Assembly (NCBI GenBank): GCA_934359255.1
Contig: CAKRLG010000004.1
Coordinates: 101,965 to 165,964, forward strand
DNA from: an uncultured Ruminococcus sp.
Lineage (GTDB): Bacteria > Bacillota > Clostridia > Lachnospirales > Lachnospiraceae
Reading direction: 5' to 3'
DNA length: 64,000 nucleotides
This document shows positions 13,475 through 43,635 of the stretch, piece after piece. The notes below the pieces were generated by a model. It ran no database searches. It was given only the letters and a program-made list of their open reading frames with translations, and had not been told where the DNA came from. The translations under genes were made by a program, and so were the position numbers. Position 1 is the first letter of the stretch, and the number at the start of each line of letters is the position of its first letter.

Positions 13475-14947
13475 ATGAAATATTATATTGGCGTAGACCT
13501 TGGAACATCTGCGGTAAAACTTCTGCTGATGGATCAGGAAGGACAGGTTGTCAATATCGTATCCAGAGAATATCCGCTGTCTTTCCCACATCCGGGCTGG
13601 TCAGAACAGAATCCGGAAGACTGGTGGGAACAGTCGAAAGAAGGAATCCGGGAACTGATCAGTAAGATCGATGCAGCAGAGGTGGCAGGTATCAGTTTTG
13701 GCGGACAGATGCATGGGCTGGTTATTCTGGACGAGAAGGATCAGGTGATCCGTCCGGCGATTCTGTGGAACGACGGGCGAACTACAAAAGAAACCGATTA
13801 TCTGAATCAGGTGATCGGCAAAGAAAAACTGTCTGAATATACGGCGAATATCGCATTTGCCGGATTTACCGCACCGAAGCTTCTGTGGGTAAAAGAAAAT
13901 GAGCCGGATAATTTTGCAAAGATTTGTAAAATTATGCTTCCGAAAGATTACCTGGCGTACTGCCTGACCGGTGTACATTGCTGTGATTACTCCGATGCGT
14001 CCGGTATGCTTCTGCTGGATGTGAAAAATAAATGCTGGTCAGAACAGATGCTGGAAATCTGTGGTGTCACCAGAGAACAGATGCCGGAACTTTTTGAGAG
14101 CTATGAAAAAGTGGGCACATTAAAACCGGAGGTGGCAAAAGAGCTGGGACTGCCGGAAACCTGTCTGGTGGCAGCGGGTGCCGGAGATAATGCGGCAGCA
14201 GCTGTGGGAACCGGTACAGTGGGAGATGGTCAGTGCAATGTATCTCTGGGAACCAGCGGAACAATCTTTATTTCCAGTGAGAACTTCGGCGTGGATCCAC
14301 ATAATGCCCTGCATGCATTTGCCCATGCGGACGGACATTATCATCTGATGGGATGCATGCTGAGTGCGGCATCCTGCAATAAATGGTGGATGGATACCAT
14401 TATCGGAACAAAAGATTATGGAAAAGAGCAGGAAACAATTGAAAATCTGGGGGAAAATCATGTATTCTTCTTACCGTATCTGATGGGAGAACGTTCGCCA
14501 CATAACGATCCGCAGGCAAGAGGTACTTTTATCGGTATGTCTATGGATACCAGCCGTGCGGATATGACACAGGCGGTTCTGGAAGGCGTGGCGTTTGCGA
14601 TCCGTGATTCTTTTGAGATAGCAAAATCTCTGGGGATTCATATCGAGAGAACCAGGATCTGCGGTGGTGGAGCGAAGAGCCCACTGTGGAGAAAGATTAT
14701 TGCCAATGTACTGAATATCAAAGTGGACCGGATCGCCTCCGAGGAAGGACCGGCCCTTGGCGGTGCCATGCTTGCTGCAGTTGCGGATGGAACCTTTGCA
14801 TCTGTGGAAGAGGCGGCTGCAAGGATCGTGAAAGTGGTGGAAACCGTAGAACCGGATCCGGAGATCGCAGCAAAATACGAGACACAGTATCGGAAATTTG
14901 AGCAGATCTATCCGACGGTGAAAGCGTTATTCCCGAAGATTTCCTAG
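13475..14947 (+). CDS. xylB: Xylulokinase
   Basis: XylB phosphorylates D-xylulose to xylulose 5-phosphate with ATP. The 490-residue protein is a full-length FGGY kinase: 'YIGVDLGTSAVKLLLMD' at the N-terminus, 'GWSEQNPEDWW', 'GISFGGQMHGLV' with the substrate-binding Met-His, 'ILWNDGRT', 'GAGDNAAAAVG', 'LGTSGTIF' and a C-terminal 'GGGAKSPLWRKIIANVL'. These are the hallmarks of xylulokinase rather than glycerol kinase. The ATG follows AGGAGGAGAAAG. Its TAG stop codon is the first three bases of a repeat element (14945), suggesting that the element was inserted at the very end of the gene. Confidence 0.93.
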   Translation: MKYYIGVDLGTSAVKLLLMDQEGQVVNIVSREYPLSFPHPGWSEQNPEDWWEQSKEGIRELISKIDAAEVAGISFGGQMHGLVILDEKDQVIRPAILWNDGRTTKETDYLNQVIGKEKLSEYTANIAFAGFTAPKLLWVKENEPDNFAKICKIMLPKDYLAYCLTGVHCCDYSDASGMLLLDVKNKCWSEQMLEICGVTREQMPELFESYEKVGTLKPEVAKELGLPETCLVAAGAGDNAAAAVGTGTVGDGQCNVSLGTSGTIFISSENFGVDPHNALHAFAHADGHYHLMGCMLSAASCNKWWMDTIIGTKDYGKEQETIENLGENHVFFLPYLMGERSPHNDPQARGTFIGMSMDTSRADMTQAVLEGVAFAIRDSFEIAKSLGIHIERTRICGGGAKSPLWRKIIANVLNIKVDRIASEEGPALGGAMLAAVADGTFASVEEAAARIVKVVETVEPDPEIAAKYETQYRKFEQIYPTVKALFPKIS

Positions 14948-15108
14948 AGCGTGTCTGAAAAAGGCTTTTCGTGAGTTGCGAGTCCCAGTTTGTGGGAGAT
15001 TTTATCCGAATGAGGGAGGCGTAGCGGGCTACGGCAACCGAATGAGGGTAAAATCTCCCGCAAACTGGGGCTTGCAGATTGCGGAAATGATTTTTCAGAC
15101 ATGCTCTA
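14945..15108. mobile_element. MITE-like element with terminal inverted repeats
   Basis: TAGAGCGTGTCTGAAAAA (14945-14962) is inverted at 15091-15108 with one difference. Inside, CCCAGTTTG(T/C)GGGAGATTTTA forms a second pair of inverted arms, and CCGAATGAGGG is present twice as a direct repeat (from about 15006 and 15039) around a GC-rich centre. The whole 164-base unit has no coding frame. The structure fits a short non-autonomous transposable element or a REP-like unit. Solo ends occur at 4636 and 42509. Confidence 0.7.
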
Positions 15109-15146
15109 GATACAGAATAATACAGACAATAAAGTGATGAAAAAAA

Positions 15147-24504: not shown

Positions 24505-24640
24505 GTGAAAAATTTATCACATACAGTTGCAGGAAAACAGGTGAAATTCCTGTACAAGTCCGTTACCGTAAAAGTCGGAGTACTCTCTGTATGGTGAGGA
24601 CTGTAAACATTTGCGGCAACCGAAGGATTACAGAATAGAA
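24505..24640 (+). ncRNA. Cobalamin (AdoCbl) riboswitch
   Basis: The leader holds the class features: a GGTGAAATTCCTGTAC segment (P3 side), TCCG-TTACCGT-AAAAGTCGGAG resembling the conserved CCCGCxACTGT...GTCGGA core, and 'GCGGCAACCGAAGG' near the 3' side. It sits between a consensus promoter and a terminator (24649-24680), directly upstream of cbiD. High cobalamin would favour the terminator and switch the operon off. The core has a few departures from consensus, so a covariance search would settle the class. Confidence 0.82.
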
Positions 24641-33854: not shown

Positions 33855-34406
33855 ATGTTTCATGTAGTAACAGGAGGAAGCGGCAGCGGAAAATCTGCTT
33901 TTGCAGAACAGTGTATCCTGGATTGTCAGGGAAATAACAGAATCTATATTGCGACGATGTACCCGTTTGATGAAGAAAGCCACCGGAGGATCGCGAGACA
34001 TCGCGCCATGCGGGCAGAGAAAAAGTTTACGACGATTGAGCGTTATACGGATCTGGAGCATCTTACGATACCGCAGGGGGCAGATGTACTGCTGGAGTGC
34101 ATGTCGAATCTGACGGCAAATGAGATCTATCAGGAAGGCGGAGCCGGGGACAATACTGTGAAGGCGATCCTGAATGGAATCCACCATCTGCTGGAGCAGG
34201 CAGAAAATCTGGTGGTAGTGACGAACGAGGTCTTTTCCGACGGCATCACCTACGATCCGGAGACAGAAAAGTATCTGGAAAAACTTGGTGCGATCAACTG
34301 TCAGATGGCGCAGATCGCAGATACAGTCACAGAGGTTGTCTACGGAATTCCGATTTTTCATAAAAAGACAGGCGAGGAGAGAAAAAATGAAGAAATTTTA
34401 TCATAG
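33855..34406 (+). CDS. cobU: Adenosylcobinamide kinase / guanylyltransferase CobU
   Basis: CobU phosphorylates adenosylcobinamide and transfers GMP to it. The 183-residue product has the P-loop 'VVTGGSGSGKSAFAEQC', 'YIATMYPFDEESHRRIARHRAMR' (the guanylated-His region) and 'VTNEVFSDGITYDPETEKYLE'. The C-terminal segment departs from the common 'GxGIVP' form. It is full length, unlike the second cobU-like gene at 35701. It overlaps cobS by 20 bases. Confidence 0.9.
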   Translation: MFHVVTGGSGSGKSAFAEQCILDCQGNNRIYIATMYPFDEESHRRIARHRAMRAEKKFTTIERYTDLEHLTIPQGADVLLECMSNLTANEIYQEGGAGDNTVKAILNGIHHLLEQAENLVVVTNEVFSDGITYDPETEKYLEKLGAINCQMAQIADTVTEVVYGIPIFHKKTGEERKNEEILS

Positions 34407-35151
34407 TTTTCTGATTGCATTTTCCATGTATTCGAAGATCCCGATGCCCCAGTGTGAATGGAATGAAGAAAATATGGCATATGCCATGTGCTTTTTCCCA
34501 TGGATCGGTGTCGCCATCGGCGGAGTAACCTGGCTGTGGGGGACGTTCGGGGAGCGACTGGGACTTTCGGCAGCTTTTTATACCGTGATCCTGACACTGA
34601 TTCCGTGGTTGATCACGGGTGGGATTCATCTGGACGGACTGCTGGATACGGCAGACGCGATGAGTTCCTGGCAGGAGAGGGAACGTCGGCTGGAGATCCT
34701 GAAGGATTCCAATTCCGGAGCATTTGCGGTGATTACCTGTGTGGTTTATTTCCTGTTCTACTACGGCGTATACAGCCAGATCAGTACGCGGGCGCTTGCA
34801 ATGATTCCGTTTACGTTTTGTCTGTCACGGACATTAAGCGGGCTGGCGATCGTGACATTTCCGAAGGCGAAAAAGACGGGATCGGTATCAGCGATGGCAC
34901 GCGGAGCGAAAGACCAGAGGGTGAAGGTTACGATGTGTGTGTATCTGGTGGTGTTACTGATCGGAATGCTACTGGTGGATTGGAAGGTTGGCCTTCTGGT
35001 GTATGGAATCGCGGGGCTGGTTTATGTGCTTTATTATCGGAATGCGATGAAATATTTCGGAGGAACGACCGGGGACCTGGCTGGGTGCTTTTTGTCGCTG
35101 TGTGAGGTGTTTACTGCTTGCGGAGCGGTGTTGGGAGCACTTTGGATGTAA
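34387..35151 (+). CDS. cobS: Adenosylcobinamide-GDP ribazoletransferase CobS
   Basis: CobS is the membrane cobalamin synthase that joins adenosylcobinamide-GDP and alpha-ribazole. The 254-residue product has about six or seven helices, 'FLIAFSMYSKIPMP', the active-site motif 'GGIHLDGLLDTADAMSSW' and 'LEILKDSNSGAFAV', and 'YYRNAMKYFGGTTGDLAGC'. The start is ATG 34387 inside the cobU 3' end; an upstream frame to 34285 has no family similarity. A 549-base non-coding stretch full of hairpins follows. Confidence 0.95.
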   Translation: MKKFYHSFLIAFSMYSKIPMPQCEWNEENMAYAMCFFPWIGVAIGGVTWLWGTFGERLGLSAAFYTVILTLIPWLITGGIHLDGLLDTADAMSSWQERERRLEILKDSNSGAFAVITCVVYFLFYYGVYSQISTRALAMIPFTFCLSRTLSGLAIVTFPKAKKTGSVSAMARGAKDQRVKVTMCVYLVVLLIGMLLVDWKVGLLVYGIAGLVYVLYYRNAMKYFGGTTGDLAGCFLSLCEVFTACGAVLGALWM

Positions 35152-35181
35152 AAAAGAAAAAATTGATAACTAGGCTGTGGA

Positions 35182-35300
35182 GGATTTTCCCGTCGTCCCC
35201 TCTGCCATACCGCGCGGGTCTGCGCTCGGCCTGAGCCTGTAGTCTCAGACACGTGCTCGACAAGCGCTGCGGTATGGCAGAGGGGACGACGGGAAAATCC
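35182..35300. repeat. Long hairpin A: 32-bp perfect arms around a conserved 55-nt core
   Basis: Bases 35182-35213 are the exact inverted complement of 35269-35300 (32 bp). Outside these arms, ATAACTA (35166-35172) again pairs with TAGTTAT (35306-35312). The 55-nt centre (35214-35268) contains CTGAG...CTCAG and matches, with two differences, the inverted centre of hairpin B. There is no T-run, so it is not an ordinary terminator, and there is no coding frame. Confidence 0.85.
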
Positions 35301-35327
35301 AGGCATAGTTATTGGGGGAGAACGGAG

Positions 35328-35505
35328 TGGCTGGTATGGGGGTGATCGAGTAGTCTGAAAAATGATGAGGTGAACAGATATGCTCGGTACGAGAATCATG
35401 AACGTGATACAATAGGTAAGTAACATTTTTAATCTATATGGGAAAAGTCGCATATAGAAGACATAAAAGTGCATTTGCTATCGAAATGTTTTTATGTCCC
35501 AGCCA
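35328..35505. repeat. Nested small inverted repeats between hairpins A and B
   Basis: TGGCTGG (35328-35334) pairs with CCAGCCA (35499-35505) and encloses two further hairpins: CTATATG/CATATAG (35434-35457) and GACATAAAA...TTTTATGTC (35460-35498, with CATTT/AAATG inside). The whole stretch between cobS and the next gene can therefore fold almost end to end. No gene is seen. Confidence 0.55.
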
Positions 35506-35516
35506 GTACTCTTGAA

Positions 35517-35637
35517 TGGATTCGGTCGATTGCTCATCGCCTCGCAGCCAGCGCTTGTCGAGCACGAGTCTGAGACTACAGGCTCAGACCGAGCGCAGAC
35601 CCGCGGCCGCGAGGCGATGAGCAATCGACCGAATCCA
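35517..35637. repeat. Long hairpin B: 29-bp perfect arms around the same core, inverted
   Basis: Bases 35517-35545 are the exact inverted complement of 35609-35637 (29 bp). The 63-nt centre, read on the minus strand, contains the same 55-nt core as hairpin A with two substitutions. The arm sequence is unrelated to that of hairpin A. No coding frame and no T-run. Confidence 0.85.
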
Positions 35638-35700
35638 CCACAACCTACCCAACAAACTTAATTTTTTACCCTTTGATAACGTAAAAAAGGAGAACCAACA

Positions 35701-36081
35701 ATGATATTAATAATCGGCGGTGCTTACCAAGGCAAACAATCTTACGCATCGAAAACATACAACCTGACCGATCCCGACTGGAAAGACGGTCAGACCTGCA
35801 CTATAGAAGATCTGAAAACAGCAAAAGCAGTCCATCATTTCCACTTCTTTATCCGCAGAGAACTGGACGAAGGAAGATCGGTCCGGGACCTCGCAGAAAC
35901 AATATGGAAAGAAAATCCCGACCTGATCATCGTAACCAATGAAGTAGGCTACGGAATCGTCCCGATGGAGGCAAAAGACCGGGAATGGAGAGAAGCATGC
36001 GGTCGGGTATGTACAAAACTTGCGGCACATGCAACTCAGGTGGTGCGCGTCTGCTGTGGAATCGGAACACGGCTCAAGTGA
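35701..36081 (+). CDS. Short CobU-like protein, second copy
   Basis: This is a 126-residue protein resembling a shortened CobU. It has a P-loop-like 'LIIGGAYQGKQSYA', in which the residue after the Lys is Gln instead of Ser/Thr, and a CobU-type C-terminus 'VTNEVGYGIVPMEAKDREWREACGRV...GIGTRLK'. The central region with the guanylated His is missing, so it is unlikely to be a full bifunctional enzyme alone. Full-length CobU is encoded at 33855. The ribosome site is AAAGGAG. It may complement the altered C-terminus of the first CobU, or act as a kinase only; both are speculation. Confidence 0.7.
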   Translation: MILIIGGAYQGKQSYASKTYNLTDPDWKDGQTCTIEDLKTAKAVHHFHFFIRRELDEGRSVRDLAETIWKENPDLIIVTNEVGYGIVPMEAKDREWREACGRVCTKLAAHATQVVRVCCGIGTRLK

Positions 36082-43502: not shown

Positions 43503-43635
43503 GGTTCTCTGGAGTCTTCCATACTCCGACCCGCTCTCGCTCAGCTGGTCCTGGCAGCGGTACTAAGGCAGCAAAATACGCTGCCTAAGGACCGGCCGGC
43601 CCAGATGGTCTGCGTATGGAAGACTCCAGAGAACC
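43503..43635. repeat. Long hairpin C: 22-bp perfect arms around an 89-nt structured core
   Basis: Bases 43503-43524 are the exact inverted complement of 43614-43635. The centre holds a second hairpin (GGTCC...GGCAGCG pairing with CGCTGCC...GGACC). The centre is not the same as that of hairpins A and B, but the architecture is alike. It lies in the 308-base gap between the binding protein and permease genes, with no T-run. Confidence 0.8.

Follow-up and report, generated by a model that had tools for sequence, protein, structure and literature searches.

The IS1182-family element IS1272 of Staphylococcus moves by stem-loop (IR) replacing transposition (PMC5678879); the term MITE is absent from the main text of that paper. 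RUP, ERIC, BIME and the Rickettsia palindromic elements are short, dispersed, mostly extragenic, multicopy sequences that form hairpins (PMC10969869). Template-switch mutations, which have been studied in RNA genes, create and maintain hairpin stems (PMC8794818). The two hairpins described here, A and B, are located in an uncultured Ruminococcus sp., in a 64,000-nucleotide stretch of DNA that was analysed as a whole and is called the window below. They represent two oppositely oriented copies of a dispersed element, which shares some properties with each of these systems.

The hairpins sit between cobS and a cobU-like ORF (Table 1), that is, among the cobalamin genes, where an earlier note made from the sequence of the window had placed them. 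The note's description of the two structures was confirmed. Perfect pairing extends over 32 bp in A and over 29 bp within the 33-bp arms of B, and the cores that they enclose are inverted copies of each other, 96% alike over 57 nt with two substitutions, and contain a small internal CTGAG/CTCAG hairpin. The arms of A and B do differ: the repeat search reported nothing common to them, and by eye they share just GGATT at the outer ends. Predicted RNA folding energies were −87.5 kcal/mol for A and −93.9 kcal/mol for B (z of −10.8 and −12.2, respectively, against 200 shuffles each), and B was also far better folded than its shuffles when treated as DNA. In agreement with the view that neither hairpin is a simple terminator, 0 terminator-like sites were found between positions 34900 and 35800 by a scan restricted to loops of 3-8 nt, and no T-run adjoining A or B could be seen by eye. 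An 8-bp direct repeat, also read by eye, surrounds the A-B segment; it is possibly a target duplication and may be due to chance.

Table 1. Features of the cob locus in the window (window coordinates).
Feature	Position	Strand	Basis or remark
cobS, upstream of insertion	34387..35151	+	PF02654; start codon chosen within listed ORF 34285-35151
TTGATAAC, left copy of 8-bp direct repeat around A-B segment	35163..35170	+	read by eye
Hairpin A, whole	35182..35300	+	perfect 32-bp arms enclosing core
Hairpin A, arms	35182-35213 / 35269-35300		32 nt, 100% complementary, 55 nt between
Core of A	35213..35269	+	covariance model R1 match 35211-35270, 69.6 bits; core among the 13 sequences used to build R1
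Spacer A-B	35301..35516	.	sequence comparison
Hairpin B, whole	35517..35637	-	33-bp arms (29 bp perfect); orientation opposite to A
Hairpin B, arms	35517-35549 / 35605-35637		33 nt, 97% complementary; perfect 29-bp stretch inside
Core of B	35549..35605	-	covariance model R1 match 35548-35607, 75.7 bits; core among the 13 sequences used to build R1
Part of right arm of B, single copy in O. intestinalis (L062/L097)	35615..35637	+	locus comparison
TTGATAAC, right copy of same 8-bp direct repeat	35673..35680	+	read by eye
cobU-like ORF, downstream of insertion	35701..36081	+	matches C-terminal part of PF02283 profile

Other structures were seen elsewhere in the window. A third long hairpin at 43503-43635, flanked by genes for a solute-binding protein and a permease, has 29-nt arms (93%) with 75 nt between them and a different core; a pattern derived from this core had no exact match among 288 loci. 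At 14944-15109, an inverted repeat of 82 nt (76%) with just 2 nt in its loop starts at an ORF's 3′ end, and an AdoCbl-II riboswitch match at 24521-24592 lies upstream of the cobalamin genes.

A search of Lachnospiraceae genomes with the core, as proposed in the earlier note, showed that it recurs elsewhere. The covariance model of the core (R1), built from 13 copies, matched at least 6 of 397 sampled Lachnospiraceae genomes, five of them strongly; since 13 candidates were scored per genome, six is a lower bound. With the best 150 candidates or fewer scored per genome, the six matching genomes had 79, 38, 45, 3, 3 and 1 (weak) copies. The core was found three times in Oliverpabstia intestinalis (G001), and G004, of the same genus, has three copies and a partial one. 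When a 4-kb query with two copies was run against 20 genomes from the genus to which G351 belongs, nine of them had at least 24 listed matches (15 candidates scored each; the rows listed for G403 correspond to flanks only). The distribution is patchy, ranging from 0 to 79 copies per genome. A DNA query of the 397 genomes matched seven at E <= 0.01; two of these, G380 and G094, were rejected, since the model search did not support them and no such hairpin could be seen at the loci by eye. A weak model match at L106 (G304, 1400-1650) corresponds to a long hairpin of another kind in which, as judged by eye, a pair of perfect 24-bp inner arms is nested within separate outer arms.

Outside of bacterial genomes, the element was not seen in viral, plasmid or phage collections at the sensitivity of the searches made. 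In detail, 60 stretches of viral contigs contained GCTCGACAAGCGCTG, none with flanking inverted arms, and three longer patterns retrieved nothing from these contigs. The core had no match in plasmid records and one 18-nt match in phage records, with no inverted repeat in the surrounding 818 bases, and the consensus element was without a match in either. Rfam gave no match at cut-off for the window hairpins or for the family; there were only matches far below cut-off, and those to miRNA families were taken as long-hairpin artefacts. Within the literature searches made here, no recognised description of the element family was found. By these searches, this family of palindromic, gene-less elements is new.

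Consensus sequences of 40 G351/G033 copies and of 35 G320 copies both form a near-perfect hairpin of ca. 155 bp, composed of outer arms that are similar between the two groups, inner arms and a conserved tip. The outer arms, whose consensus is GGAGCTGTCGCATTA and GGGGCTGCCGCATTA, are only moderately conserved by column. Flanking arms are a regular part of the element: in a check for cores without flanking inverted arms, which the earlier note had named as a finding that would count against it, the arms scored above all 830 shuffles in 79 of 83 distinct copies, the exceptions being L166, L157, L148 and L158.

The ends of the consensus resemble those of IS1182-family elements. Genes at two loci, L272 and L268, pass NCBIfam NF033551 (IS1182-family genes). 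The elements at L272 (G403) and L185 (G004) have GGGGCTGTCGCACTAA at one end and GGGGCTGTCGCTTTAA at the other, both within hairpins, and GGGGCTGTCGG is present at 11 of the 12 ends of six IS1182-type copies in G406. The GGAGCTGTCGCATTA/GGGGCTGCCGCATTA ends of the G351/G033/G320 copies resemble GGGGCTGTCGCACTAA of L272 and L185. By eye, A and B lack such terminal repeats; their ends are not clearly IS1182-like, the only resemblance being a weak GGCTGT next to A. No IS1182-type (PF13751) gene was found in G320, G351, G405, G408, G416 or G417, genomes that may be incomplete; the latter five are among the nine genomes with the listed matches (at least 24) mentioned above. G033 has a single PF13751 gene, with no IS1182-like ends in the 3.4 kb around it.

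Related genomes differ in whether they carry the element at a given site. Thirteen of the 20 genomes were compared at the site of the second copy of locus L190, where the element is present in five (G351, G033, G408, G416 and G401) and absent in eight. In G033, a 150-nt element is located exactly between GTCGAGCA and AGACTG, at the place of a 31-nt stem-loop of G416, and G408 has the same nested arrangement with one extra G. The resident tip is kept in G351, G416 and G401; in G416, the 31-nt tip is CAGCTTTGAGACTACAGGCTCAAAGCTGCGC. The nested copy brought its own arms, the outer arms of the resident remain around it, and there are no duplicated bases at the junctions. The replacement in G033 and G408 is presumably one inherited event. 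The nested state should be later than the tip-only state, since losing the nested copy would not bring back the conserved tip. At the site of the first copy of L190, G351, G033 and G401 have a full copy, and G416, G414 and G405 have differing short stumps consisting of one longer arm and a truncated partner, with the core absent. The L116 locus of G004 was considered as an empty site and rejected as not clean, other genes being located there.

Paired copies were also observed elsewhere. Among the matches listed for G320, neighbours less than 1 kb apart were arranged as + then - in six cases (L136-L141), which is the arrangement of A and B, as + + in one and as - + in none; L141 contains a further + + pair. 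The A-B spacer had no match to the six G320 spacers outside of the cores and no tandem repeat listed; in the three of these six that were scanned for repeats (L137, L138 and L139), tandem repeats of 50-58 bp are present.

The arms diverge far more than the core and yet stay complementary, orthologous loci included. Mean identity between copies from Oliverpabstia and the window (n=8) was 0.94 for the core, 0.60 for the left arm, a value raised by two orthologous pairs in the set, and 0.56 for shuffled sequence. The corresponding values were 0.89, 0.62 and 0.56 for G320 (n=35) and 0.88, 0.79 and 0.60 for G351 and G033 (n=40). Agreement between the two arms of the same copy, over 30 nt, was 0.90, 0.80 and 0.79 in the three sets, respectively. 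It follows that the variable-arm pattern is extreme in Oliverpabstia and just partial in the G351 group. The earlier claim of a constant core with differing, self-complementary arms therefore stands for Oliverpabstia and the window but not for the 40 G351/G033 copies, which share arms.

Paired change is seen both between orthologues and across the alignments. Orthologues L080 and L085 differ by two paired changes in place, together with one changed pair that is now mismatched and some one-sided differences; L079 and L082 differ on one side only; and at the second L190 site, comparison of G351 with G416/G401 and with G033 revealed paired replacements in place. In the inner arms, two-sided changes occupy 54 cells in G351/G033 versus 12 expected if the arms were independent (51 are Watson-Crick), and 172 versus 84 in G320 (113 Watson-Crick). 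The outer arms, which align less well, have 170 versus 124 and 208 versus 144, respectively. Two-sided changes are unevenly distributed among copies; since the one-sided ones are also uneven in G351/G033, tract-wise rewriting is not proven by this. By eye, L167 has a length change in both arms, which is too weak for use, and at L082 (G004) a truncated copy lies directly upstream of a full copy, joined to it within the right arm.

Pairing could be maintained by compensatory selection if the element acted as RNA, either as a structured RNA in its own right or as a hairpin at the 3′ end of host transcripts (a terminator or an RNase III site), with the core as its functional loop. The core stem does covary, with two-sided changes in 5 of its 15 pairs, the G351/G033 consensus resembles a bidirectional terminator in being flanked by runs rich in A and in T, and 48 of 71 classed copies lie less than 200 bp from the 3′ end of a gene, as estimated by a crude ORF call without a background control. 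The absence of any terminator-like site found at A or B and the patchy presence and variable copy number of the family point the other way, as do the intermediates. One-sided changes in the inner arms gave 16 G-U and 15 A-C in G351/G033 and 27 and 25 in G320, 43:40 in all, the remainder being transversions (36 and 53); counted as distinct variants per column, there were 33 G-U and 29 A-C. G-U:A-C ratios were 71:70 and 58:43 in the outer arms and 15:46 and 3:1 in the core of G351/G033 and G320, respectively. Counted more crudely, across whole arms, there were 127 G-U versus 111 A-C overall and, in G320 alone, 61:38, an excess that leans towards RNA in that genome. All of these counts pool copies from either host transcription strand; a very small control of five tRNAs gave 3 G-U and 0 A-C. 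The missing G-U bias of one-sided inner-arm changes speaks against a dedicated RNA and is in line with template switching on DNA, and the arm changes as a whole fit the latter somewhat better. Since, in addition, Rfam contains no match at cut-off, the suggestion in the earlier note of a structured RNA family with free stem sequence was not upheld, and we consider an RNA origin of the pairing unlikely.

Two further explanations concern the source of the arms, and the cob locus bears on both. A CobS protein scan retrieved 17 loci, with G001 as the nearest at 93%; G004 stands at 98%. Upstream of the hairpins, the window resembles G004 (90%) more than G001 (85%), and downstream it resembles G001 (94%) more than G004 (87%); judged by sequence, its cob neighbourhood is a mosaic. 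The site is empty in G004, which has neither arm of A or B and no hairpin with such arms, and likewise in the more distant L063, L064 and L098. The A-B pair was probably gained here as DNA. Were the core alone (ca. 50 bp) mobile, replacing the tips of pre-existing hairpins, the arms would belong to the target. Non-orthologous L079 and L080, with cores identical over 48 nt and unrelated arms, look like this, and after the single tip replacement the inserted copy is still surrounded by the outer arms of its target. However, in that sole replacement the newcomer brought its own arms, the empty G004 site lacks a hairpin bearing A or B arms, and in G351/G033 the arms adjoining the core are common to different loci, which makes mobility of the core alone quite improbable. 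The other explanation, also raised in the earlier note, is that insertion creates an inverted copy of flanking DNA, each arm being local sequence. It could draw on the part of one B arm that is present singly beside cobS in O. intestinalis. This single arm reads as a deletion stump, as it resembles the stumps at the first L190 site, at which related species carry the element in full; GATGAG, common by eye to the G004 flank and the B arm, is a possible deletion point; and G004 is without either arm. For the cob locus, the idea was thus not borne out, and we regard it as very unlikely in general. A weaker version of this idea would be that one arm is copied onto the other once the element has inserted.

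We lean towards the view that A and B are old copies of a non-autonomous palindromic element of Lachnospiraceae that was moved by IS1182-type transposition and whose arms were rewritten by template switching. Judging from its termini, the element would be moved in trans by a candidate IS1182-family transposase. A new copy would replace the tip of a stem-loop, including that of a resident related copy. The arms may then be kept paired mainly by template switching during replication, one arm being copied onto the other, with selection on RNA probably not the main cause of pairing and the core at the tip being the putative constrained part. A further proposal is tentative and, on present evidence, rather doubtful: that the tip (ca. 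45 nt) is inherited as sequence and the stem as complementarity only, the arms being rewritten while copies swap stem-loop tips and nest in each other.

The preferred account relates the family to the systems introduced above. The element ends resemble the terminal GGGGCTGTCG of the IS1182-family elements examined, and, as described for IS1272, a stem-loop target was replaced, without target duplication in the one event observed (PMC5678879). Unlike IS1182 and IS1272, the element is gene-less, ca. 155 bp long and palindromic throughout, with a conserved core, and its target, unlike that of IS1272, was the tip of another copy of the same element. It is short, dispersed, mostly extragenic, hairpin-forming and multicopy like RUP, ERIC, BIME and the Rickettsia elements (PMC10969869), but differs from palindromic MITEs and REP-like repeats in that, within one genus, copies keep the loop but have arms with almost no relation from one copy to the next. 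A RAYT origin was not supported in the copy-rich genomes G320 and G351, with 0 matches to PF01797 (Y1, TnpA_REP); G033 has four such matches, and G001 and G004 two each. The template-switch model (PMC8794818) predicts that stems are perfect and that several bases change together in pairs, with no G-U intermediates; it was studied in RNA genes, whereas the present case concerns a mobile, repetitive element of which many copies exist in parallel.

Dozens of parallel copies, together with orthologues in sister species, constitute a natural experiment on how pairing of long hairpins is maintained, since the one-sided intermediates expected under compensatory selection differ from those expected under template switching. 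The family also provides a second natural case of stem-loop replacement beside IS1272, here by a small element without a transposase gene.
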